Shown piece after piece: positions 25,941 to 44,966 of a stretch of 64,000 bases of DNA. The first letter of the stretch is position 1. Each line of letters starts with the position of its first letter. Source of the DNA: Aromatoleum buckelii (GTDB lineage: Bacteria; Pseudomonadota; Gammaproteobacteria; Burkholderiales; Rhodocyclaceae). Under the pieces are notes generated by a model. The model was not told the origin of the DNA. It was given only the letters and a program-made list of their open reading frames with translations, and did not search any database. Position numbers and translations under genes: made by a program. The DNA lies in assembly GCF_012910785.2 (NCBI RefSeq), contig NZ_WTVH02000008.1, positions 558,001-622,000 of the forward strand, written 5' to 3'.

Positions 25941-26930
25941 TCAGCGTCGCTTCGCCTCGTCCCACAGCCTGCCCACGAGGCGCTTCGCGAGCACCGGGGT
26001 TGCGCGGCGGCGGTACGGGACGCTGACGGTCGTCGTTTCCATCGGCTGGATCGTGCGCTTGATCTGGCGTTCGATGGTGGCGAACGCCGCCGCGTCGAGC
26101 GGCTGCCCGGCGAGCGCGTCGAGGCCGCCGACGAATTCAGGCCGCGACGACACGCCGGTGCAGGCGATGCGCAGCTCGCCGATCGCCTCGCCGTCGCGGG
26201 TGAGCGCGGCCGCGACGCCCGCGAGCGGGAAGTCGATCGCCCCGCGCATGCGCAGCTTCTCGTAGCCGCTGACGCGGCCGGCGACGAGCGGCACGGTGAC
26301 GGCGAACAGCAGCTCGTCGGCTCCCAGCGCGAGCCAGCGCATGCCGTCGTCGACGTAAAGCTCGGCGAGCGGCAGGCGCCGGATACCCTGCGGGCCGAGG
26401 AGTTCGACTTCGGCGCCGAGCGCGAGCAGCGCCGGCGCGACATCGCCGCTGAAGGCTGCGTAGCAGCGGCTCGACTTCGGCGCGACGCGGCAGGTGTCGC
26501 CGGCGAGTTTCATGCAGTAGTTGTTGCCCTGGCGCCAGCTCTCGCTCTGGTTGAAGTACTGGCAGCGCGTTTCGAGGCACAGGTTGCCCCCGAGCGTCGC
26601 CGCGGTGCGGTGCGTCGGTCCCGCGACGCAGAGCGCTGCCTGTGCAAGGGCCGGCAGGCTCGCCCGTACCGTCGGGTCGGCGGCGAGCGTCGCGAGCGTG
26701 ACGCCGGCGCCGAGGCGCAGCGTATCGCCGCTGCGCTGCACTTCGCGCATCTCCCCGACGTTGCCGAGGTCGATGACGATATCGGTGCTGACAAGGCCGC
26801 GCCGCAGGTTCGGCACGAGGTCGGTGCCACCGGCGATGAAGCGGCTCGCGGGATGTTCGCCGCGCAGGCGAACCGCGTCGACGGCGCTCGCCGGACGCAA
26901 CACGCGGAATTCGGACAGGGCGGCCATCAT
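25941..26930 (-). CDS. hcrB: 4-Hydroxybenzoyl-CoA reductase, beta (FAD/[4Fe-4S]) subunit
   Basis: 329 residues, FAD-binding subunit of the xanthine oxidase family ([15 protein letters not shown] for FAD pyrophosphate, [18 protein letters not shown]). The region from residue 118 holds an insertion with Cys123, Cys139, Cys147 and Cys156, matching the extra [4Fe-4S]-binding loop that distinguishes HcrB from other family members. This loop is tied to the low-potential, reductive direction of the enzyme. Its start overlaps the hcrA stop (ATGA, 26927-26930). Final gene of the hcrCAB operon. Confidence 0.94.
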
Positions 26931-29311
26931 GCGGCTCCTTTTGCAGCGGCCGCCACGTGGGCGCCGGCGGGGGGTTTGCGGTTGAGCGCGTCGAACACGC
27001 GGTCCGGGGTGAAGGGTGTCGCACGGATGCGAGTGCCGGTGGCGTCCTCGATCGCGGCGGCGATCGCGGACATCACGCCGGCGAGTGGTCCTTCGCTCGC
27101 TTCCTTCGCGCCGAACGGACCGTTCGGGTCCAGGCTCTCGACGATATGCACTGCGATGTCGGGCGACTCAATGATCGTCGGCACGCGGTAGTCGAGCAGG
27201 CTGACCGCCTTGTGGCGGCCGTTCTCATAGACGGTTTCCTCCGAGATCGCCTGCCCCATGCCCATCCAGATCGCGCCCTGGACCTGGCCTTCGACCGACA
27301 TCGGGTTGATCGCGAAGCCGCAGTCGATCGCCGACCAGACTTTCTCGACGGTGACCTTGCCGAGCTCGGTGTCGACGCTGACTTCGACCGCCTGTGCGGC
27401 GTAAGAGAAGCCCATCGTCGAGCCGACCGCGCCGCCGCGCTGCTTGCCACCCTGGAACTCGGGTGGGCACGTGAACGTGCCCTTGACGGTGAGCATGCCG
27501 ACGTCGACGAGGGCTTCCTCGACGATGTCGTGGAATGGGATCTGACGCGCCGGGTCGTTCGCGACCGCGGCCGCCTCGCCGAGCCACTCGACGTCCGCCT
27601 CGGCGACCTGCAGCCGCTTCGCCGCAGCGGCGACGAGCACTGCCTTGAGGTTGCGCGCGGCATCCGCCGCAGCGTTGCCGACCATGAACGTCACGCGTGA
27701 CGAATACGAGCCGTTGTCCTTCGGCGTCAGCGCGGAGTCGGTCGCGATGAGGCGCAGGCGGCGGTACTCGACGCCGAGAATTTCGGCGACGACCTGGGTG
27801 ATGATCGTCGACGAGCCCTGGCCGATGTCGGAGGCGCCGGTCAGGATCGTGATGCCGGCGTCGAAATCGACGCGCAGCGCGATCGTCGCGTGCGGCTGAC
27901 CGGTGAAATGCACGGGCTTCGCCGAGCCGCTGACGAAGTGCGAGCACGCGATGCCGATGCCGCGCCTGATCGGGCCGTCGCTGTCGGCTTCGAGCCGCGC
28001 TACGCGCTCGCGCCAGCCGCTCGCCTGCTCGACCCAGTCGAGGCACTCGGGCAACCCGTAGCTCATCACTTTCAGCCCGTTGATCGTCTCGGTCGGCGCC
28101 TTCAGCAGGTTGCGGCGGCGCACCCCGAAAGCGTCGAGGCCGAGCTCGGCCGCCATCATGTCGAGCAGCGATTCGAACGCGAAGCGGATGTTGACCGTGC
28201 CGTGGCCGCGCATCGCGCCGCACGGCGGCGTGTTCGTATAGACGCGGTAACCGTCGTACTTGACCGCGGGCAGGTCATAGAGGCCGTTCAATAACGCCCC
28301 CGCGTAGAGGATCGTCACCAGCCCGTAGCCGCCATACGCACCGCCGCGCTGCACGACGTGCGCCTCGCATGCGGTCATGCGACCGTCGCGGGTCAATCCG
28401 AGCTTCATGCGCACGTGCGTTTGCGGCCGGCCGCGGTGCGTGAGGAAAGCTTCCTCGCGCGTCTGCAGCAGGCGCACGGTGCCGCGCGCCGCGCGGGCGA
28501 GCAGCCCGGCGATGATCTCGAAGTTCAGCGTCTCGACGCGGTGACCGAAGCCGCCGCCGACGAACGGCTTGATGACGCGGATATAGGCCGCGTCGGTCTT
28601 CATGCAGCGCGCGAGCGATTCGTGCACGTAGTAGGGCACCTGCGTCACCGACCACAACGTGAGGTGCCCGCGCTCGTTGTCCCATGCTGCGAGCGCGGCG
28701 TTCGGCTCCATCATCGCGTGATGGATTTCGGCGCACTCGAAGGTGTCCTCGCGGATCAGGTCGGCCGCTGCGAAACCGGCGGCGGCGTCGCCGAACTCGT
28801 TATGCACTTCGCGCTCGATGTTGCCTTTATTGTTGTCGTGCAGCAGCACGGCGTCGGCCTTGCGCGCGTCGGCCGCGTCGAAATACGCCGGCAGCTCGCG
28901 CACTTTCAGCCGGATCAGCGCGAGCGCCGCGTCGGTCGTCGCCTCGTCGATCGCGGCGACGGCCGCGACCGGCTCGCCGATGTAACGGATGCGCCCGCGC
29001 GCGAGCGGGAATTCGTTCTGCGCAATCGGGATCACGCCGTAAGGCGTGTCGCAGTCGTTGCCGGTGACGATGCCGCGCACGCCGGGCAGCTTCAGTGCTT
29101 CGCTGACGTCGACTTCGAGCAGCTCGGCGTGCGCGTACGGGCTGCGCAGGATCTTGCCGACCAGCGCCCCCTGGGCCGGCAGGTCGGCGGTGTAGCGCGC
29201 CGTGCCGGTGACTTTCTCGACGCCGTCGATGAGCGGCAGGCGGGCGCCGACGCCGTGCGGCGCCGCGTTGGCCGCGCCGAACTTGCGCAGTTCGCGGTCG
29301 GGCGCGTTCAT
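26927..29311 (-). CDS. hcrA: 4-Hydroxybenzoyl-CoA reductase, alpha (molybdenum cofactor) subunit
   Basis: 794 residues, catalytic Moco subunit. It removes the phenolic hydroxyl of 4-hydroxybenzoyl-CoA reductively to give benzoyl-CoA, feeding anaerobic ring reduction. Family motifs: [62 protein letters not shown] and the C-terminal [13 protein letters not shown], which carries the active-site Glu. N-terminal [25 protein letters not shown] is typical of the subunit. ATGA overlap with hcrC upstream and hcrB downstream couples all three subunits. Confidence 0.95.
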
Positions 29312-29784
29312 GCCGGCACCTCGCTGCCGCAGGCGGCCGCTTCGACCGATTCGATGATCTTGACGTAGCCGGTGCAGCGGCACAGGTTGCCGGCAAGTGC
29401 TTCGCGGATCTCGTCGCGCGACGGCTGCGGATTGCGGCGCAGCAGCGCTTCGGCCGCCATCACCATGCCCGGAGTGCAGAAGCCGCACTGGCTGCCGAGA
29501 TGCTCGTGGAACGCGCGTTGCAGGCGCGACAGGTTACCTTCGTGGCTGAGGCCTTCGATCGTCTCGATCGAGCGTTCGGCGACGCTGTGCGCCAGCGTGC
29601 AGCACGCGAGCCGCGGCTCGCCGTCGACGAGCACCGTGCAGGCGCCGCACTCGCCGCCGTCGCAGCCCTGCTTCGTGCCCGTCAGGCCGAGCGTGTCGCG
29701 CAGGTAATCGATCAGCAACGCATTCCCGGCCACTGCGTCCTCGCGCGGCCGGCCATTCACCGAAAGTGTCAGCAGGGTCTTCAT
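29308..29784 (-). CDS. hcrC: 4-Hydroxybenzoyl-CoA reductase, gamma ([2Fe-2S]) subunit
   Basis: 158 residues carrying two [2Fe-2S] clusters: the ferredoxin-type site C41, C46, C49, C61 ([22 protein letters not shown]) and the helical-domain site C100, C103, C135, C137 ([17 protein letters not shown]). It passes electrons from ferredoxin-level donors toward the Mo centre. The start ATG 29784 has a strong AAGGAGG 5-6 nt upstream; an ATG 60 bp earlier lacks one. First gene of hcrCAB. A perfect palindrome lies about 60 bp upstream. Confidence 0.95.
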
Positions 29785-29844
29785 GTCGCCTCCTTGGGCG
29801 AACCGCCGCGAGCGCAGGTGCGATCCTCGCCGGTCCGGCATCAA

Positions 29845-29860: not shown

Positions 29861-30150
29861 ATTTAACGTGAAGCGATGCTAGCACCGTTGGAGGCAACGG
29901 AAAATATGAAGCGCAAAGCAGCGGTCGGTCGCGAGACTGCCCATGAAAACCCATGATTTTCAAGGGATTCTGGCTGATGATGCGAACGCTCGGCCTGCTC
30001 CGTCTGCAATAAATAGCCGCGGTTTGTGCGCTCGCCCGAAAGGCACGCCGCAGCTGGCGCAACTTTCTTTCTGACGTCGCGCCACAGCGCCGGGATCGGC
30101 GTACGGTACGGCTCGGGCGTGATTTGACCTCGCCGGAGCCGGAGGGAACA
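29861..30150. other. Remainder of the divergent hcrC/asparaginase intergenic region
   Basis: No gene is supported. AT-rich DNA follows the palindrome (ATTTAACGTG), and an imperfect inverted repeat TGAAAA-N7-TTTTCA lies at 29944-29962. The asparaginase ribosome binding site GGAGGGAAC is at 30141-30149. Promoters for both directions should lie here, but I could not place clear -35/-10 pairs. Confidence 0.4.
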
Positions 30151-31236
30151 ATGGCCGGCATCGAAACCCGGAGAGCCTGTGCGATGAATCCCGGCAACAC
30201 GGCTGGCGTAGCGGAACAAGGATCGCGCGCCGCGGCGGGCGAAGGACAGCCGGCGCGGCCGCGCATCGTGCTGCTAGGCACTGGCGGCACGATCGCGGCG
30301 GTGGCCGGCGAGCCGACCCAGCTCCACGACTACACCGTCGGCGCGACCACCGACGAACTGCTCGCCGCGGTGCCGCAACTGCGCGCGCTCGCCGAAGTGC
30401 GCGGCGAACAGCTCGCCAATGTCGACAGCCGCGACATCGACAATGCACTGCTGCTGAAGATCGCCCGCCGCGCCGACGCGCTGCTCGGCCAGCCCGATGT
30501 CGACGGCATCGTCATCACGCACGGCACCGACACCCTCGAAGAGACGGCGTACTTCCTCAATCTCGTGCTGAAGAGCGCGAAGCCGGTCGTGCTTGCCGGC
30601 GCGATGCGTCCGGCGACCGCGCTGAGCGCCGACGGGCCGCTGAATCTGTACAACGCTTTTCTCGTCGCCACCTGCGCTACAGCGCACGGCAAGGGCGTGC
30701 TGGTGATGATGAACGACCGCATCGGCGCGGCGCGTTTCGTCACCAAGGGGGCCACGACCGCGCCCGACGCGTTTCGCGCGTTCGAACAGGGCAACCTCGG
30801 CGAAGTCGCCGCGGGCAGGGTGCATTTCTTCACTGCGCCGTTATGCCGGCACACCGTCGACAGCGAGTTCTCGCTCGCCGCGATCGATGAGCTGCCGCAT
30901 GTCGACATCCTCTACGATCATCAGGGCGCGGGGCTGCACCACTATCGGGCCGCGATTTCCGCCGGCGCGCGCGGGATCGTCATCGCCGGCTCCGGCAACG
31001 GTAGCCTGTCGCCTGCAGCGCGTGCCGGCGCCGAAGAGGCGGCACGGCATGGTGTCGCGGTCGTGCGCTCGAGCCGCGTCGGCCAAGGCGTGGTCACCGC
31101 GTCGACCGACGACGCGGTGCTCGGCACTGTCGCGGCGAACTCGCTCAATCCGCACAAGGCCCGCATCCTGCTGATGCTCGCCCTCGGGCGTTCGCGCGAC
31201 GCCGGCGAGCTGCAGCGCTGCTTCGACCAGTACTGA
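30151..31236 (+). CDS. L-asparaginase / glutaminase-asparaginase family protein
   Basis: 361 residues. Hydrolyses Asn (and often Gln) to the acid and ammonia. The first catalytic motif ILLGTGGTIA-like (VLLGTGGTIAAVAG) with its Thr and the second motif VITHGTDTLEETAYFL are both intact, as is LAGAMRPATALSADGPLNLYNA. The C-terminal domain carries the substrate-side SGNGSLS. No clear signal peptide is seen in the Pro/Ala/Gly-rich first 40 residues, so cytoplasmic location is more likely. ATG 30151 has GGAGGG 6 nt upstream. Fits the local amino-acid-catabolism theme. Confidence 0.93.
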   Translation: MAGIETRRACAMNPGNTAGVAEQGSRAAAGEGQPARPRIVLLGTGGTIAAVAGEPTQLHDYTVGATTDELLAAVPQLRALAEVRGEQLANVDSRDIDNALLLKIARRADALLGQPDVDGIVITHGTDTLEETAYFLNLVLKSAKPVVLAGAMRPATALSADGPLNLYNAFLVATCATAHGKGVLVMMNDRIGAARFVTKGATTAPDAFRAFEQGNLGEVAAGRVHFFTAPLCRHTVDSEFSLAAIDELPHVDILYDHQGAGLHHYRAAISAGARGIVIAGSGNGSLSPAARAGAEEAARHGVAVVRSSRVGQGVVTASTDDAVLGTVAANSLNPHKARILLMLALGRSRDAGELQRCFDQY

Positions 31237-31255: not shown

Positions 31256-32722
31256 TCAGCGCCCTGCGTGCGGCTGTTGCTGAGTCTGCAGGTGCGCGGC
31301 GACGTGGCCGTGGACGGGCGTGACCAGCGTCTGCGGCAGCAGCGAGCCGGCGATCATGCCGACGATGCCTGCGAGCATGCCGGCGAAGTGCGGCGGAACG
31401 TCGGCGTCGGGAGCGGCGATCTCGAGCGTCACCCACACGACGAGGCCGGCCAGGATCGATCCCAGCGCGCCCTGCGTGCTCGCGCGCTTCCAATAGAGAC
31501 CGAACGCGAGCGGCACGAAAGCGGTCGCGAGCGTCACTTTGTACGCGTTCTCGACCATGCCGTGGATCGTCTCCTCGGTGTGCGTCGCGTACCACGTGAT
31601 CAGCAGCGCGAACACGACGACGACGATGCGCGTGAGCAGCAGGAACTGGCGATCGTCCAGGCGGCGGAACGTGCCGCGCAGGATGTTCTCGGAAAAAGTC
31701 ACGGAGGGCGCGAGCAGCGTTCCCGACGCAGTGCTCATGATCGCCGACAGCAGCGCGCCGAAGAACATCACCTGCGCGAACAGCGGTGTCTGCGCGAGAA
31801 TCAGCTGCGGCAGGATCTGCTGGCTGTCGATGTCCTGATACTGCGCGACGAGCTCGGGGTCGATCAGCGTCGCCGAGTACGCGATGAACAGCGGCACGAA
31901 CGCGAAGAGAAAGTAGCCGGAGCCCCCGAGCAGCGTGCCGCGCACGGCGATCTTCTCGTCGCGCGCCGAGTTCAGCCGCTGGAACACGTCCTGCTGCGGG
32001 ATCGAGCCGAACCCCATCGTCAGGATGCCGGCGAGGAAGGCGATGATGTCGGCCGGGTCGAGCGCGGGCAGGAAGTTCAGCTTGCCGGACTCGCTCGCGT
32101 GGGCGACGACGAGGTCGACTCCGCCCGCCATATCACCGACCAGCCACGCGATGTAGAACAGCCCGGCGATGATGACGATCATCTGCATGAAGTCGGTCAG
32201 CGCCACCGACCACATGCCGCCGAACAGCGTATACACCAGCACCACTGCGGCGCCGATCATCATGCCGGCCTCGTTCGAGATCGCGCCGTCGGAGAGGATG
32301 TTGAACACCAGGCCGAGCGCGGTGATCTGCGCCGCGACCCAGCCGAGGTAGGAGACGACGATCGCGATCGAACACAGCACTTCGACGGTGCGCCCGTAGC
32401 GTAGCCGGTAGTAATCGCCGAGCGTCAGCAGGTTCATGCGGTACAGCGGGCGCGCGAAGAACAGGCCGACGAGGATCAGGCACAGCGACGCGCCGAACGG
32501 GTCGGACCACAGCCCGCGCAGGCCTTCGTCGATGAACGTCGCGGAGATGCCGAGCACGGTTTCCGAGCCGAACCACGTCGCGAACACCGTCGCAGTGACG
32601 ATGTACAGCGGCAGGTGGCGCCCGGCGGCGACGTAGTCGGCGGTGTTCCTGACGCGCGTCGCCGCGTATAGCCCGACGCCGATCGAAACCAGCAGGTAAG
32701 CGATGACGAAGCCGATCAGCAT
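31256..32722 (-). CDS. Sodium:solute symporter family (SSS) transporter
   Basis: 488 residues with about 13 membrane helices. SSS-family hallmarks: ADYVAAGRHLPLYIVTATVFATWFGSETVLGISATF near the N-terminus, VYTLFGGMWSVALTDFMQMIV and GFGSIPQQDVFQRLNSARDEKIA. Proteins of this type bring in amino acids such as proline, or organic anions, with Na+. It lies 193 bp downstream of, and on the same strand as, the arginase-aminotransferase gene, which suggests an amino acid substrate, but this is inference. Confidence 0.9.
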   Translation of the reverse strand: MLIGFVIAYLLVSIGVGLYAATRVRNTADYVAAGRHLPLYIVTATVFATWFGSETVLGISATFIDEGLRGLWSDPFGASLCLILVGLFFARPLYRMNLLTLGDYYRLRYGRTVEVLCSIAIVVSYLGWVAAQITALGLVFNILSDGAISNEAGMMIGAAVVLVYTLFGGMWSVALTDFMQMIVIIAGLFYIAWLVGDMAGGVDLVVAHASESGKLNFLPALDPADIIAFLAGILTMGFGSIPQQDVFQRLNSARDEKIAVRGTLLGGSGYFLFAFVPLFIAYSATLIDPELVAQYQDIDSQQILPQLILAQTPLFAQVMFFGALLSAIMSTASGTLLAPSVTFSENILRGTFRRLDDRQFLLLTRIVVVVFALLITWYATHTEETIHGMVENAYKVTLATAFVPLAFGLYWKRASTQGALGSILAGLVVWVTLEIAAPDADVPPHFAGMLAGIVGMIAGSLLPQTLVTPVHGHVAAHLQTQQQPHAGR

Positions 32723-32836
32723 GGGCGGATTCTTCCGGGGACGTGGATTGAGCGGGCCGAAGTTTAGCAACGAATTTCGTCGCGAGGGCCGCCCCAATCG
32801 ATCCGGATTCGCGCCCGATCGGGCCGACGAACGGGG

Positions 32837-32875
32837 CGACGATTGTGCCGGCGATTAGGCCGACGATTGTGCCGG
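32837..32875. repeat. Short direct repeat in the spacer upstream of the SSS transporter gene
   Basis: CGACGATTGTGCCGG occurs twice (32837-32851 and 32861-32875), 24 bp apart, with a related GCCGACGAACGGGG just before. It sits between the arginase-OAT stop (32916) and the transporter start (32722). Confidence 0.6.
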
Positions 32876-32915: not shown

Positions 32916-35072
32916 TCAGCCGTGCAACGGCTCGTGCTTGCGGCGGTGGTTCGCAGTCGCGAGCGTGTCGAGGATCACGTCGATCCCGCCGTCGAGCACG
33001 GCGTCGTCGATCACCAGCGGCGGTGCGAAGCGCAGCACCGTGTGGTGCGTGTCCTTCGTCGCGATGCCGCGTGCGAGCAGTAGTTCGGCGCCGGTCGCGG
33101 CGTCGAGAATGTGGGGGTCGAGCTCGATGCCGACCAGCAAGCCGCGGCCGCGCACTGCCTTCACGCACGGCGGCGCACCGTCGGCAAGCCGGCGCATCAG
33201 ATGTTCGCCGAGACGCGCGGCGTTTTCCCACGGCCGCGTTTCCTCGAGCAGATCGAGGACTTCGAGCGCGACAGCCGCGCCGAGCGGATTGCCGCCGAAC
33301 GTCGAGCCGTGGTCGCCGGGATGGAGCACGTCCATCACTGCGGCGTCGGCGAGGAACGCCGACACCGGCAGCAGGCCGCCGCCGAGCGCCTTGCCGAGGA
33401 TCACCCCGTCCGGATGCACGCCTTCGTGCTCGCACGCGAGCAGCCGGCCGGTGCGCCCGAGCCCGGTCTGCACTTCGTCGACGATCAGCAGCACGTTGTT
33501 GCGGCGACAGATCTCGGCGCATCGCGCCAGATAGCCGTCGGGCGGCACGATAATGCCGCCTTCGCCCTGGACCGCCTCGACGAGGAAAGCTGCCGTGTCC
33601 GGCGTGATCGCCGCTTCGAGCGCGTCGGCGTCGGCGTACGGGATGAGCGTGAAGCCGGGCGGGAACGGCCCGAAGCCGTCGCGGTACTGCGCTTCTGACG
33701 ACATGCCGACGATCGCAATCGAACGGCCGTGGAAGTTGCCCTGGCAGGCGATGATCCCGGCCTGGTCGGTTGCGACGCCCTTGACCTTGTACGCCCATTT
33801 GCGCACCGTCTTGAGCGCGGTTTCGACCGCTTCGAGGCCGGTGTTGACTGGCAGCGCCCGCTCGTAGCCGAACAGCGTGCACAGCCGCTCGAGCAGCAGC
33901 GGCAGGCGGTCGTTCGAATACGCGCGCGACGTCAGCGCGAGGCGCTGCGCCTGGTCGTTGAGCGCGCGCAGCAGGCGCGGGTGGCCGTGACCGAAGCTCA
34001 CTGCGGAATACGCGCTCATCATGTCAAGGTAGCGCCGCCCCTCGACATCCCACAGCCAGACGCCCTGACCACGGTGAAACACCACCGGCAGCGGGGCGTA
34101 GTTGTGCGCGCCGAAATGCTGTTCCTTCGCGCGCAGCAGCGCCGTGCCCGGGCCGAGCGCGGCGCCGGCGAATTCGGCAATCCAGGCGGCGCCTGCACCG
34201 AGCGGATCGAGTCCGGGCACGTATTCGACGATCTCGAGTGCCGCGAAGTCGGGGCACGCGCGCAGCGCGAGCAGCGCGTCGGAAAGCTCGTCGGCCGCGA
34301 GGCCCCCGGTTTCGCGGCAGGTAACCGCCGGAAAGCTCGCCGGATCGAGCGCGTCGAGATCGAGCGTGACGCCGAACGCAGCGGTGTTGCGCCGCACGAC
34401 GCTGAGCGCGTCGCAGAACACCGCCGACAGTCCCCGCTCGCGGATCGCCGGCATATCGAAGATCGTCACGCCGAGCCGCTGCAGGCGCTCGAACTCTTCC
34501 GGTTCCCACGAGCGCGCGCCGATGATGCAGACGTTGTGCGGGTCGAGACGCGGCCCCGGAATGCCGGTCAGCAGCGCATGGCCTTCGCCGAGCACTGCCG
34601 CGAGCGGCATGCCGTGGATGTTGCCGGACTGGGTGCTGGCGCTGGTGTGGCTGTCGAGGTGGGCGTCGATCCAGATCAGGCCGAGCGTGCCGCGCGCCGC
34701 GACCCGGCTGGCGATCGCCGGCCAGGTGCCGATCGCGATCGCGTGGTCGCCGCCGAGGATCAGCGGGAAGCGCGCCGGGTCGAGCGCAGCGAGCTGGTCG
34801 GCGACGCTTCGCGCGAGGTCGGCGACGCTCTTCAGGCGTTCCTCCATCGACGCGCCCGGCGCCGCCGAATCGTGCGGCAGCAGCGTCTGCTCCCATTTCG
34901 CGGCGATGCCGAGGCCGCGCAGCCGCGCGACGAGGCCGGAGGCCTGCAGCGCCGCGGGGCCTGCGTCGGGGCCGCTTCCGGGCGCGCCGAGTGCCGACGC
35001 GACGCCGAGGATGCTGACGCTGGCATGCGTCGCGGAATCGTTCGAGATATGAAGTGGGGCTGAATGCGTCAT
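32916..35072 (-). CDS. Arginase-ornithine aminotransferase fusion protein
   Basis: 718 residues in one uninterrupted frame. Residues ~15-305 are an arginase: GGDH (His110), DAHLD (Asp136, His138, Asp140), SGNIHGMPLA and DLDALDP (Asp238, Asp240), giving all Mn ligands. Residues ~312-718 are a class III aminotransferase of the ornithine type: GAHNYAPLPVVFHRGQGVWLWD, NTGLEAVETALK, VDEVQTGLGRTG and PLP-lysine K561 in LGKALGGG. Together they would convert arginine to urea and ornithine, then ornithine plus 2-oxoglutarate to glutamate semialdehyde and glutamate. A strong ribosome binding site (GGGAGG) precedes ATG 35072. The two enzymes are normally separate. Confidence 0.93.
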   Translation of the reverse strand: MTHSAPLHISNDSATHASVSILGVASALGAPGSGPDAGPAALQASGLVARLRGLGIAAKWEQTLLPHDSAAPGASMEERLKSVADLARSVADQLAALDPARFPLILGGDHAIAIGTWPAIASRVAARGTLGLIWIDAHLDSHTSASTQSGNIHGMPLAAVLGEGHALLTGIPGPRLDPHNVCIIGARSWEPEEFERLQRLGVTIFDMPAIRERGLSAVFCDALSVVRRNTAAFGVTLDLDALDPASFPAVTCRETGGLAADELSDALLALRACPDFAALEIVEYVPGLDPLGAGAAWIAEFAGAALGPGTALLRAKEQHFGAHNYAPLPVVFHRGQGVWLWDVEGRRYLDMMSAYSAVSFGHGHPRLLRALNDQAQRLALTSRAYSNDRLPLLLERLCTLFGYERALPVNTGLEAVETALKTVRKWAYKVKGVATDQAGIIACQGNFHGRSIAIVGMSSEAQYRDGFGPFPPGFTLIPYADADALEAAITPDTAAFLVEAVQGEGGIIVPPDGYLARCAEICRRNNVLLIVDEVQTGLGRTGRLLACEHEGVHPDGVILGKALGGGLLPVSAFLADAAVMDVLHPGDHGSTFGGNPLGAAVALEVLDLLEETRPWENAARLGEHLMRRLADGAPPCVKAVRGRGLLVGIELDPHILDAATGAELLLARGIATKDTHHTVLRFAPPLVIDDAVLDGGIDVILDTLATANHRRKHEPLHG

Positions 35073-35205
35073 GACATCCTCCCATACCGCAGCTGCGGGC
35101 GAACAAGTCGAAATGCCTGACGGTTCGACGTGGGCGGCAGGGATTCGTTCAGCTGCTGCAGGGCGGGGCGCGGTGTCGAGCGCGCCGCGACTCCCGTCGG
35201 CGCGT

Positions 35206-39983: not shown

Positions 39984-40148
39984 ACTCCGTCGACCCGCTG
40001 CTCCGGCCGACCCGCGCGGCCGGATAACCCTACGGGGTAAAAGCTTCTTTCGCCGCGCGCCTGATCCGGGTATCGTTTTCGACGGAAGCGGGTCGGCGCC
40101 CGTATGACGCCACGTTGCACAGCCCGTCTTCGACAAACGGAGGCAGCG

Positions 40149-43100
40149 ATGCAGGCACTTCAGGCGGACGTCGACGCCGCGCGATTCGATGCGGTTCTGG
40201 AACAGATCGCGAACAAGTTGCCGACCGACCAGGCGGCGCTGATCGAGCCGTTTGCGCGGCGATGGTTCGGCCAGGTCGCGCCGGAGGATCTCGCCGACCG
40301 CTCGGTCGACGACCTGTACGGCGCCGTGGTCAGCCACTGGCAGTTCGTGCGCAAGCATCGCGGCGGCACGCGCTTGCGCGTGTACAACCCGAAGCTCGAA
40401 GAGCACGGCTGGGAATCCACGCACACCGTCGTCGAAATCGTCAATGACGACATGCCGTTCCTCGTCGATTCGATCACGATGGAAGTCAATCGGCAGGGGC
40501 TCACGCTGCACCTGATCATCCATCCGGTGATGCGTGTCGTGCGCGACGAAGCGGGCCAGTATCTCGGGATCGCCGAAGACGGCGACACGCGCGGGCATTA
40601 CGAATCGATCATCCACGTCGAAGTCGACCGGCGCACCGAAGCGGACGACGTCGATGCGCTGCGCACCGGGCTCGAGCGCGTGCTCGCCGACGTGCGCGCG
40701 GCAGTCACCGACTGGCCGGCGATGCAACAACGCGTCGTCGAGATCATCCAGGGCATCGAGCAGGACCCGCCGCCGGTCCCGCAGGACGAGATCGCCGAGA
40801 CGGTGGCTTTCCTGAAGTGGCTGTTGGACGAGAACATCGTGCTGCTCGGCTGCCGCGACTACGAGCTGGTCGCCGCCGACGGCGACAGCGAACTGCACAT
40901 CCGGCCCGGCTCGGGGCTCGGCTTGCTGCGGCAGCATCCGGGAGAGAACGTGTCGCGCTCGTTCGCCGCGCTGCCGATGAACCTCAAGGCGACGCTGCCG
41001 AATCTGCCCGTGCTGCTGACCGTGACGAAGTCGAACACGCGCTCGACCGTGCATCGGCCGGGGTTCATCGACCGGTTCAGCGTCAAAGTGTTCGACGAGA
41101 ACGGCCGCGCGCGCGCCGAGCGCCGCGTCATCGGGCTGCTCGCGTCGACCGCTTACAGCACCAGCCCGAAGCTGATTCCGTTCCTGCGCCGCAAAGTCGC
41201 CGCGGTCGTCGAGCAGGCCGGCCTGCTGCCGAAGAGCCATGCGGCGAAGGCGTTGCTGACGATCCTCGAGCGCTACCCGCGCGACGAGCTGTTCCAGATC
41301 TCGACTGAGGATCTGTACCACCAGGCGATGGGCATCCTGCGGCTCGGCGAGCGCCAGCGCACGCGCCTTTTCGTCCGCACCGACCCGTTCGCGCGCTTCG
41401 TCTCGTGCCTGATCTACGTGCCGCGCGAGCACTACAACACCGACCAGCGGCTGCGCATGCAGGCGGTGCTGATGGAAGCGTTCAACGGCAGCAGCGCCGA
41501 GTTCGACGTGCAGTTTTCCGAATCGGCGCTGGCGCGCGTCCTGATCATCGTGCGCACGCGCGACTCGACGATTCCGCCGTTCGACGTGCACGAACTCGAG
41601 CAGCGCCTGGTGCGTGCGACGCGGCGCTGGGAGGACGAGCTGCAGCGCGCGATCCTCGAACACTGTGGCGAGGAGCGCGGCATGGCGCTGCTGCGCCGCT
41701 ACGCCGACGGTTTCCCGGCCGGGTACCGCGAGGAATACGCGCCGCGCGTCGCGGTGTTCGACATCGAGCAGATGGAATCGCTTGCCGATGACCGCGACCT
41801 CGCGATGAGCCTCTACATCCCGCTCGAAGCGCCGCCGGGGCGGCTGAACTTCAAGATCTACCGTGTCGGCGCGCCGGTGCCGCTGTCGCAGAGCCTGCCG
41901 ATGCTCGAACGCATGGGCGTCGCCGTCATCGACGAGAAACCCTCGGAGATCGAGCGCCAGGACGGGCGCTGCGTGTGGATCCACGACTTCGGGCTGTCGT
42001 ACGCGGGCGCCGAGGAACTCAACCTGGACCGGCTGCGGGCGCTGTTCCACGATGCTTTCCTGCACGCGTGGCGCGGCGACATCGAGAGCGACGACTTCAA
42101 CCGCCTGACGCTGCTCGCCGGGCTCACGTGGCGCGAGATCGTCGTGCTCCGCGCCTACGCGAAGCACATGCGCCAGGCCGCGTTCACGTTCAGCCAGGCG
42201 TACATGGAGCAGACGCTCGCGGCCCACCCGAAGCTCGCGCGGCAACTGATCGACCTGTTCGCGCTGCGCTTCGACCCGGCGCATGGCGGCGAGCGCGAGG
42301 CGCAGGCGGCAGCGCTTGTCGCGAACATCGAGGAGGCGCTGAACCACGTCGCCAACCTCGACGAGGACCGCATTCTGCGGCAGTTTCTCGCGATGGTGCG
42401 GGCGACGCTGCGCACCAACTACTACCAGCGCGCCGCCGACGGCAGGCCGAAGACTTATCTGTCGCTGAAGCTCGATCCGCGCCGCATCCCGAACCTGCCG
42501 CAGCCGCTGCCGATGTTCGAGATTTCGGTCTATTCGCCGCGCTTCGAAGGCGTGCATCTGCGCGGCGGGCGCGTCGCGCGCGGCGGCCTGCGCTGGTCGG
42601 ACCGCATGGAGGACTTCCGCACCGAAGTGCTCGGTCTCGTGAAGGCACAGATCGTCAAGAACGCCGTCATCGTGCCGGTCGGCTCGAAAGGCGGCTTCGT
42701 CGTCAAGAACCCGCCGGCCGGCGGCCGCGAGGCGCTGCTGGCCGAAGGCGTCGAGTGCTACCGCACGTACCTGCGCGGCCTGCTCGACGTGACCGACAAC
42801 CTCGTGCAGGGCCAGGTCGTGCCGCCCGTCGATGTAGTGCGCCACGACGAGGACGACCCTTACCTCGTCGTCGCAGCGGACAAGGGAACGGCGACGTTCT
42901 CCGATCACGCGAACGCGGTGGCGGCCGAATACGGCTTCTGGCTCGGCGACGCGTTCGCGTCCGGCGGCTCGGCGGGCTACGACCACAAGAAAATGGGCAT
43001 CACTGCGCGCGGCGCGTGGGAGTCGGTCAAGCGCCACTTCCGCGAACTCGGGCTGAACACGCAGGAACAATCGTTCACGGTCGTCGGCATCGGCGACATG

Positions 43101-44966
43101 TCCGGCGACGTGTTCGGCAACGGCATGCTGCGCTCGCGCACGATCCGGCTCGTCGCCGCATTCGACCACCGCCACATCTTCATCGACCCGACTCCAGACG
43201 CCGAAACCTCGTTCGCCGAACGCGAGCGCCTGTTCGCGCTGCCACGTTCGTCGTGGGACGACTACGACAAGACGCTGATCTCGGCAGGCGGCGGCGTGTG
43301 GTCGCGTCACGCGAAATCGATTCCCCTGTCGCCGCAGGTGCGCGAGGCGCTCGACATCGAAGCCGAGATACTGTCGCCGGCCGAGCTGATCCGCGCGATC
43401 CTCACCGCGCCGGTCGATCTGCTCTACAACGGCGGCATCGGGACGTATGTCAAGGCGACGAGCGAGACCGACGCCGCGGTCGGCGACCGGGCGAACGACG
43501 CGGTGCGCGTCAATGGCGCGGCGCTGCGCTGCCGCGTCGTCGCCGAAGGCGGCAACCTCGGCGTCACGCAGCTCGGGCGCATCGAATACGCGCTGCGCGG
43601 CGGCAAGATCAACACCGACGCGATCGACAACTCCGGCGGCGTCGACTGCTCGGATCACGAGGTGAACATCAAGATCCTTCTCGACAGCGTCGTCGATGAA
43701 GGCGACCTGACCGACAAGCAGCGCAACGTACTGCTCGTCGAGATGACCGACGAAGTCGCCGGCCTCGTGCTGCGCGACAACTACGGCCAGACGCAGGTGC
43801 TGTCGGTGACGCGCTCACGAGGCGTCGCGCTGCTCGGCGAGCAGGCCGAATTCATCCGCCGGCTCGGCCATGCGGGGCGCCTGAACCGCAAGCTCGAGTT
43901 CCTGCCGATGGACGAGGAGATCGCCGAACGGGCGCTCAAGCAGGTCGGCCTCGTCACGCCCGAACTCGCGGTGCTGCTCGCATACAGCAAGATCGAGCTG
44001 TTCGACGAAGTCATCGCCTCCGACGTGCCGGAAGATCCGTACATCTCGGCTGCGCTGAAGAACTATTTTCCGCAGCCGCTGCGCGAACGCTATGCGGCGC
44101 AGATCGAGCGCCATCCGCTGCGGCGCGAGATCATTGCGACGCACGTCGTCAACAGCATGATCAACCGCGTCGGGCCGACTTTCGTCAGCCGGCTGCACGG
44201 CGAACTCGGCGCGACGCCGGCGGAAGTCGTCCGGGCGTACATGGCGAGCCGCGAAGTGTACGGCCTCGTGCCGACGTGGCGCGACATCGAGTCGCTCGAC
44301 AACGTCGTCGCCGACGTGGTGCAGACCGAGATGATCATCGAGTCGGTGCGGCTGATTGAGCGCGGCGCGGTGTGGTTCCTGCGCCACCGCGACTGGATCG
44401 CCGACCTGCAGGCGACGCTCGACTATTTCTCCGCAGGCGCCGCGGAGCTGTCCGCCGGGCTGCGCGACTTTGTCCAGCCGGCGTACCGCGAAGTCCTCGA
44501 CACCGTCGCCGCGGGTTTCATCGAGAAAGGCGTGCCCGCGCCGCTCGCGCAGCGCATCGCGTCGCTCGACGAACTGTATTCGGCGCTCGATCTCGTCGAG
44601 GTGGCGGCGGAAACCGGACGGCCGGAAGCGACCGTCGCGCGCGTGTATTACGCCCTCGGCGACCAGCTCGACCTGTACTGGCTCGGGCTGCAGATCTCCG
44701 CGCTGCCGGCCGAATCGCGCTGGCAGGGGCTCGCACGCAGCGCGCTGCGCAGCGAGCTGTCGAACCAGGCGCGCATCCTCGCTGCCGAAGCGCTCAGGCA
44801 TTGTCCGGGCGTCGAACAGCCCGAAGTGGTGATTGCCGCATGGGAAGCCCGCAACCGCAGCAACGTCGAGCGTTACCGGCATCTCCTCGCGGACGTGAAG
44901 ACCGCCGCGCAGACCGACATGCCGATGCTGTCGGTGCTGCTGCGCGAGCTGCGCAACATGAGCTGA
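40149..44966 (+). CDS. gdhB: NAD-specific glutamate dehydrogenase, large (~180 kDa) class
   Basis: 1605 residues, the size of the GDH-180 class (Pseudomonas/Streptomyces type). Long N-terminal ACT-like regulatory region (residues ~1-700), then the catalytic core with RGGRVARGGLRWSDRMEDFRTEVLGLVKAQIVKNAVIVPVGSKGGFVVK, DNLV...PPVDVVRHDEDDPYLVVAADKGTATFSD and VVGIGDMSGDVFGNGML (NAD-binding). Catabolic direction: glutamate to 2-oxoglutarate plus ammonium. ATG 40149 has GGAGG 5 nt upstream; an earlier in-frame ATG at 40104 lacks one. It can consume the glutamate made by the arginase-OAT pathway. Confidence 0.95.
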   Translation: MQALQADVDAARFDAVLEQIANKLPTDQAALIEPFARRWFGQVAPEDLADRSVDDLYGAVVSHWQFVRKHRGGTRLRVYNPKLEEHGWESTHTVVEIVNDDMPFLVDSITMEVNRQGLTLHLIIHPVMRVVRDEAGQYLGIAEDGDTRGHYESIIHVEVDRRTEADDVDALRTGLERVLADVRAAVTDWPAMQQRVVEIIQGIEQDPPPVPQDEIAETVAFLKWLLDENIVLLGCRDYELVAADGDSELHIRPGSGLGLLRQHPGENVSRSFAALPMNLKATLPNLPVLLTVTKSNTRSTVHRPGFIDRFSVKVFDENGRARAERRVIGLLASTAYSTSPKLIPFLRRKVAAVVEQAGLLPKSHAAKALLTILERYPRDELFQISTEDLYHQAMGILRLGERQRTRLFVRTDPFARFVSCLIYVPREHYNTDQRLRMQAVLMEAFNGSSAEFDVQFSESALARVLIIVRTRDSTIPPFDVHELEQRLVRATRRWEDELQRAILEHCGEERGMALLRRYADGFPAGYREEYAPRVAVFDIEQMESLADDRDLAMSLYIPLEAPPGRLNFKIYRVGAPVPLSQSLPMLERMGVAVIDEKPSEIERQDGRCVWIHDFGLSYAGAEELNLDRLRALFHDAFLHAWRGDIESDDFNRLTLLAGLTWREIVVLRAYAKHMRQAAFTFSQAYMEQTLAAHPKLARQLIDLFALRFDPAHGGEREAQAAALVANIEEALNHVANLDEDRILRQFLAMVRATLRTNYYQRAADGRPKTYLSLKLDPRRIPNLPQPLPMFEISVYSPRFEGVHLRGGRVARGGLRWSDRMEDFRTEVLGLVKAQIVKNAVIVPVGSKGGFVVKNPPAGGREALLAEGVECYRTYLRGLLDVTDNLVQGQVVPPVDVVRHDEDDPYLVVAADKGTATFSDHANAVAAEYGFWLGDAFASGGSAGYDHKKMGITARGAWESVKRHFRELGLNTQEQSFTVVGIGDMSGDVFGNGMLRSRTIRLVAAFDHRHIFIDPTPDAETSFAERERLFALPRSSWDDYDKTLISAGGGVWSRHAKSIPLSPQVREALDIEAEILSPAELIRAILTAPVDLLYNGGIGTYVKATSETDAAVGDRANDAVRVNGAALRCRVVAEGGNLGVTQLGRIEYALRGGKINTDAIDNSGGVDCSDHEVNIKILLDSVVDEGDLTDKQRNVLLVEMTDEVAGLVLRDNYGQTQVLSVTRSRGVALLGEQAEFIRRLGHAGRLNRKLEFLPMDEEIAERALKQVGLVTPELAVLLAYSKIELFDEVIASDVPEDPYISAALKNYFPQPLRERYAAQIERHPLRREIIATHVVNSMINRVGPTFVSRLHGELGATPAEVVRAYMASREVYGLVPTWRDIESLDNVVADVVQTEMIIESVRLIERGAVWFLRHRDWIADLQATLDYFSAGAAELSAGLRDFVQPAYREVLDTVAAGFIEKGVPAPLAQRIASLDELYSALDLVEVAAETGRPEATVARVYYALGDQLDLYWLGLQISALPAESRWQGLARSALRSELSNQARILAAEALRHCPGVEQPEVVIAAWEARNRSNVERYRHLLADVKTAAQTDMPMLSVLLRELRNMS

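Follow-up and report, generated by a model that had tools for sequence, protein, structure and literature searches.

A single gene predicted to encode a bifunctional arginase–ornithine aminotransferase in Aromatoleum buckelii and related bacteria

Arginase, ornithine aminotransferase (OAT), and the pathway in which they act are textbook biochemistry; known arginases are trimers or hexamers, and OATs are dimers or hexamers. To our knowledge, the nearest known analogue of a protein that combines the two is the cyanobacterial enzyme AgrE, also called ArgZ. According to the portion of the AgrE literature on which we draw, this one protein takes arginine via ornithine to proline, which PutA then oxidizes (PMC8262935). 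The protein described below resembles AgrE in that a single chain would take arginine to ornithine and onward, and it differs in its parts and products: AgrE uses a dihydrolase, not an arginase, and a cyclodeaminase, not an aminotransferase, and it yields ammonia and CO2, not urea. Our literature search, with thin coverage of subscription journals and preprints, returned no paper that we recognized as dealing with an arginase-OAT fusion, which is weak evidence for its novelty.

We analyzed a stretch of 64,000 nucleotides from Aromatoleum buckelii (hereafter, the window), in which one gene joins an arginase domain to an OAT domain. The gene, its parts, and the neighbors that matter here are as follows.

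30124 to 31236, convergent with the symporter gene: type II asparaginase (TIGR00520, over cut-off)
31256 to 32797, minus strand: SSF sodium/solute symporter, downstream of the fusion (PF00474, E = 4.9e-42)
32916 to 35072, minus strand: arginase-OAT fusion gene, a single open reading frame of 718 codons (718 amino acids), ATG start, TGA stop
32964 to 34112, minus strand: OAT domain, residues 321 to 703 (Pfam PF00202, Aminotran_3, E = 3e-115)
34113 to 34169, minus strand: junction, residues 302 to 320, predicted helix, break of ~3 residues, helix
34170 to 35021, minus strand: arginase domain, residues 18 to 301 (Pfam PF00491, E = 1.4e-47)
35077 to 35083, minus strand: Shine-Dalgarno-like GGGAGGA, 4 nt before the fusion ATG, read from the upstream sequence
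40104 to 44966, plus strand: large NAD-glutamate dehydrogenase (by Pfam)

The product of the fusion gene is very probably a bifunctional enzyme for breaking down arginine, one that was fused from adjacent genes and kept as useful, a reading that we build on sequence comparison. In the proposed mechanism, the N-terminal half would use a two-manganese center to hydrolyze L-arginine, giving ornithine and urea, and the C-terminal, pyridoxal phosphate (PLP)–dependent half would transfer the delta-amino group of ornithine to 2-oxoglutarate, giving glutamate semialdehyde and glutamate. The semialdehyde would cyclize to P5C, and PutA and the NAD-glutamate dehydrogenase could then deliver this carbon to central metabolism. 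Retention of the fusion across the genus, and by some members of the family, is probably due to the usefulness of having the two activities in equal amounts and close together. Architecture, conservation, active-site residues, and relatives with neighboring genes are observed directly; that both halves are active, which way the flow runs, that a gene pair gave rise to the fusion, and why it was retained are inferences.

The first-pass annotation had described one uninterrupted frame with both enzymes, with all arginase Mn ligands in the first half, an intact class III ornithine-type aminotransferase in the second, and almost no linker between them, and this description held. The frame, for which no strand had been given, was confirmed as a 718-codon open reading frame on the minus strand with both Pfam domains, present as a single copy in the 4.16-Mb genome. 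That two genes were falsely joined by assembly or sequencing is vanishingly improbable: each of the 16 other genomes of the genus that were searched carries the fusion (matched between residue 1 and residue 710 or beyond, at 74 to 95% identity; Aromatoleum anaerobium, a named carrier, at 94%), as do many other assemblies of the family. Because all 16 carry it, the fusion is no artefact, and nothing was found in favor of one. The region near 34130 to 34150, where a stop or frameshift had been considered, reads in the same frame with neither in four other genomes of the genus (L005 to L008, 93 to 95% identity). Values of dN/dS were 0.14 to 0.26 for the arginase half and 0.09 to 0.18 for the OAT half (10 pairs among five close relatives); for the 19-codon junction taken alone, the estimate was noisy and reached 1.23. 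The conserved ligands together with dN/dS below 0.3 rule out a decayed arginase half. We also found no start at the junction, because a scan of codons 280 to 344 for in-frame ATG, GTG, or TTG returned only GTG at 285, 330, and 331; a separate OAT start is ruled out, as codons 286 to 329 hold none of the three. A scan for promoters and terminators was uninformative, with no promoter-like site and 3 terminator-like sites against 3.0 expected.

For comparison, 196 loci were examined, 186 of which contain a close OAT. Among these 186, the arginase is fused to the OAT in 68 and lies in a separate open reading frame in 35 (hereafter, split loci), and no arginase was detected in 83, where the available stretches were often short. 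Removal of seven duplicate loci left 64 fused and 32 split arginase rows. Both Pfam domains were present in all 40 fused proteins that we aligned, chosen from the 68 fused loci, and a sequence search of the PDB gave no best stretch spanning both halves in the best 60 of its 263 matches.

The OAT half scored 501.2 bits with TIGR01885 (ornithine–oxo-acid transaminase), above the 378.4-bit equivalog cut-off, and aligns with human OAT at the PLP lysine (K561) and at pocket residues Y325, Y355, and R450, whose human counterparts we take to be the ornithine-pocket residues Y55, Y85, and R180. It shares these features with RocD-type enzymes, at 49% identity to both the Bacillus (3RUY) and human (1OAT) proteins in Foldseek alignments, and it differs from them in having no start of its own and an arginase at its N terminus.

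By its sequence, the other half is an arginase-like member of the arginase family that falls outside the TIGR01229 equivalog: it passed PF00491 (163 bits; curated cut-off, 22), and its best NCBIfam model was TIGR01229 (arginase), at 187 bits, below the 227.6-bit equivalog cut-off. Bacterial arginases were its best sequence matches among solved structures. Alignment to Bacillus RocF (1CEV) placed all six Mn ligands (H110, D136, H138, D140, D238, and D240) and the catalytic H153 and E283, positions whose roles here we presume from known arginases. All 68 fused and all 35 split arginases (64 and 32 distinct) keep the six ligands and the catalytic Glu, and the catalytic His is found in all 68 fused and in 34 of the 35 split loci, duplicates included. 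The one departure is L093, a split pair in a Xanthobacteraceae metagenome-assembled genome (MAG), whose arginase carries Asn at that position. Besides its score and its joining to an OAT, the half differs from RocF in the substrate pocket, where N128 of 1CEV is replaced by H142 and D178 by E190, with S149 and E193 retained; we take these Asn, Ser, Asp, and Glu positions to contact the alpha-carboxylate and alpha-amino groups of the substrate in known arginases.

These two replacements and the score under the equivalog cut-off could mean that the first half now acts on a different guanidino substrate and has ceased to be a strict arginase. We consider such a shift improbable, since TIGR01229 is by far the best family (187 bits, versus 70 for the formimidoylglutamase model), its closest matches among solved structures are bacterial arginases, it retains S149 and E193, and the partner enzyme uses ornithine. 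Furthermore, the same residues recur beside separately encoded OATs: His occupies position 128 in all 68 fused loci and in 27 of the 35 split ones, and Glu occupies position 178 in 67 of the 68 and again in 27 of the 35 (both counts include duplicates). Both classical residues are present in seven split loci (L131, L132, L162, L171, and L173 to L175), which, together with L178, form a group separate from all others with a support of 97 in the arginase tree rooted on 1CEV. The change from Asn/Asp to His/Glu therefore probably came before the fusion. Against the bifunctional reading itself, the low TIGR01229 score, the two altered substrate-contact residues, and the Asn of L093 all count to some degree, and we nonetheless hold that reading to be very probable.

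Why the halves are fused is a finer question within the bifunctional reading, for which we weighed two answers that are not alternatives to it. In the first, which develops a suggestion of the first-pass annotation, the halves would lock together in one particle and pass ornithine between sites, keeping it from the biosynthetic pool. Such channelling is attractive because the gap between the aligned domains is short in all 68 fused loci (16 to 22 residues) and the joint is a predicted helix-break-helix; the order of the halves, arginase and then OAT, is likewise identical in all 68. Many fused enzymes, however, do not channel. The structure model (pTM, 0.75; its residue numbering is the protein numbering minus one) also speaks for little here, as its OAT half is distorted, with a root mean square deviation of 11 to 14 Å to the solved OATs listed; because the model is poor over this half, we drew no active-site distance or geometry from it. 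AgrE offers a precedent for carrying arginine through ornithine to a product on one chain, although the portion of its literature cited here treats release of ornithine as possible and not investigated (PMC8262935). On balance, we regard channelling as a tentative idea that is rather unlikely to be right. Still more doubtful is a specific form of it, in which a closed particle of trimeric arginase and dimeric OAT channels ornithine and the arginase constitutes a distinct, OAT-partnered subfamily with a rewired His/Glu pocket.

The second answer is that one frame merely replaces a translationally coupled pair and so fixes stoichiometry, with no gain in transfer and with halves that are otherwise ordinary. 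Here the split loci are informative. Adjacent pairs, as in Gammaproteobacteria MAGs, Shinella, and Azospirillum, resemble the fusion in placing arginase before OAT in adjacent or overlapping genes, and differ in making two polypeptides and, in 7 of the 35 split loci, in having the usual Asn/Asp arginase. Arginase precedes OAT in 33 of the 35. The order is reversed in L131 and L132, where the OAT frame overlaps that of a classical Asn/Asp arginase; these two loci come from a different family within the taxonomic order of A. buckelii. Possible ATGA overlaps occur in five split pairs (L052, L079, L145, L146, and L148), and in five more loci (L133 to L136 and L138) the halves share one frame with a single stop directly between them. 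Because of these possible overlaps and single in-frame stops, the step from pair to fusion would be small, and we give the stoichiometric answer a slightly better than even chance.

Given relatives with adjacent or overlapping genes, a pair of this kind is the probable source of the fusion, most likely through adjacent arginase-then-OAT genes becoming one frame. The tree of arginase halves (96 rows, with L137 counted as fused) requires four changes of the fused or split label. When both halves were used (74 rows, leaving out L057, L137, L131, L132, and 18 near-copies), the tree required two, and a single fused clade was not rejected (AU p = 0.443); a single origin of the fusion is possible. 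The arginase of L137, from genome G497, sits among the split rows of the arginase tree; this locus is possibly a second fusion or conceals a stop.

The distribution of the gene bears on the stoichiometric answer and on the bifunctional reading as well. In a sample of 297 Rhodocyclaceae genomes, 81 had a close match (E <= 1e-95), distributed over 25 of 68 genera, and 79 of these 81 matches spanned both halves, beginning before residue 50 and reaching at least residue 558; the two partial matches were in G1278 and G1329. A stop fell inside the matched stretch in 3 of the 81 (L188, L194, and G1186), with both domains in one frame in L188 and L194. Since 216 of the 297 genomes lack a close match, the fusion is dispensable at the family level, a point that weighs against the bifunctional reading. 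The stoichiometric answer meets a different difficulty: without a further gain, re-split forms might be expected in the genus and family, yet the genus sample is fused in 16 of 16 genomes, and the close OATs of the family, at the same threshold, are fused save for the two partial matches. Thus, the spread of the two-domain architecture, which the first-pass annotation had proposed to check, came out as throughout the genus sample and in only part of the family.

Samples of the order, class, and phylum gave sparser matches; some genomes are shared between samples. In the order, 24 of 399 genomes matched, of which 12 showed the two halves within a single match and the other 12 showed the OAT alone. 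The class yielded 54 matches in 369 genomes, of which seven had both halves and at least one internal stop; besides the A. buckelii genome, both halves appeared without a stop only in G497 (L137), whose junction contains an undetermined residue. In the phylum (21 of 398), one match besides that of A. buckelii spanned both halves, with a stop. Plasmid and phage collections held no place that covered 80% of the fusion query, and the two plasmid matches that ran across both halves, from Shinella and Azospirillum, were separate open reading frames. Judged by record titles, with names scanned for the best 80 of 447 relatives, fused loci came mostly from Betaproteobacteria (Aromatoleum, Azoarcus, Zoogloea, Azonexus, Dechloromonas, and MAGs) plus a small number of oddly titled MAGs, and split loci from Gammaproteobacteria or unplaced proteobacterial MAGs and one Xanthobacteraceae MAG. 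Two MAGs, titled Bordetella parapertussis and Candidatus Eisenbacteria (L040 and L057), carry fusions of Betaproteobacterial type, and L057 lies very close to L049 and L122 in the tree; both are probably misnamed or misbinned.

The genomic setting adds a metabolic context. The successive steps that the first-pass annotation had drawn, from arginine through ornithine to glutamate semialdehyde, form a coherent route when continued to glutamate, with PutA in the genome (over cut-off) and an NAD-glutamate dehydrogenase in the window. The latter, which had been cited as gdhB, is indeed there, encoded on the opposite strand at a distance of ~5 kb; its link to the fusion is putative. The symporter reported just downstream was likewise found, as a member of the SSF family, with a related gene in 35 of the 64 distinct fused loci; of the 10 NCBIfam models that matched it, none was over its cut-off. 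Its likelier start is the ATG at 32722, 193 nt past the fusion stop, and in L021 and L043 the related gene flanks the opposite end of the fusion. UbiB lies upstream on the same strand as the fusion, with a related gene in 34 of the 64 loci (for both neighbors, some stretches were short). Other features nearby include a 12-bp imperfect direct repeat at 32816 to 32875, between the fusion stop and the symporter; the type II asparaginase, a further amino-acid-degrading enzyme; and, at 26927 to 29844, two minus-strand open reading frames that by eye resemble the large and iron-sulphur subunits of a molybdenum hydroxylase.

Elsewhere in the A. buckelii genome, the sole other match to the arginase family is HutG, a formimidoylglutamase, and AstA gave no match there (the control matched in 2 of 14 genomes). 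With no other arginase, no AstA match, and PutA present, the gene therefore fits a role in arginine catabolism. Use of the urea by A. buckelii was considered and set aside: the genome gave no match to urease alpha (the control matched in 4 of 14 genomes) and none over cut-off to urea carboxylase, the best being partial, at 567 of 1303.85 bits. Given the lack of a urease alpha match, part of the arginine nitrogen should leave the cell as urea. Urease does not go along with the fusion, being found in 7 of 14 picked fusion-bearing genomes.

Provided that both halves are active, the protein would be a natural bifunctional enzyme of the arginase route, and its present-day relatives range from separate genes, through possibly overlapping ones and frames with a single stop between the halves, to the fusion itself. 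It would then be well suited to asking whether fusion serves channelling or equal dosage only. More broadly, His/Glu arginases may escape annotation, as both of those scored, the window protein and that of L079, fell below the curated arginase cut-off.
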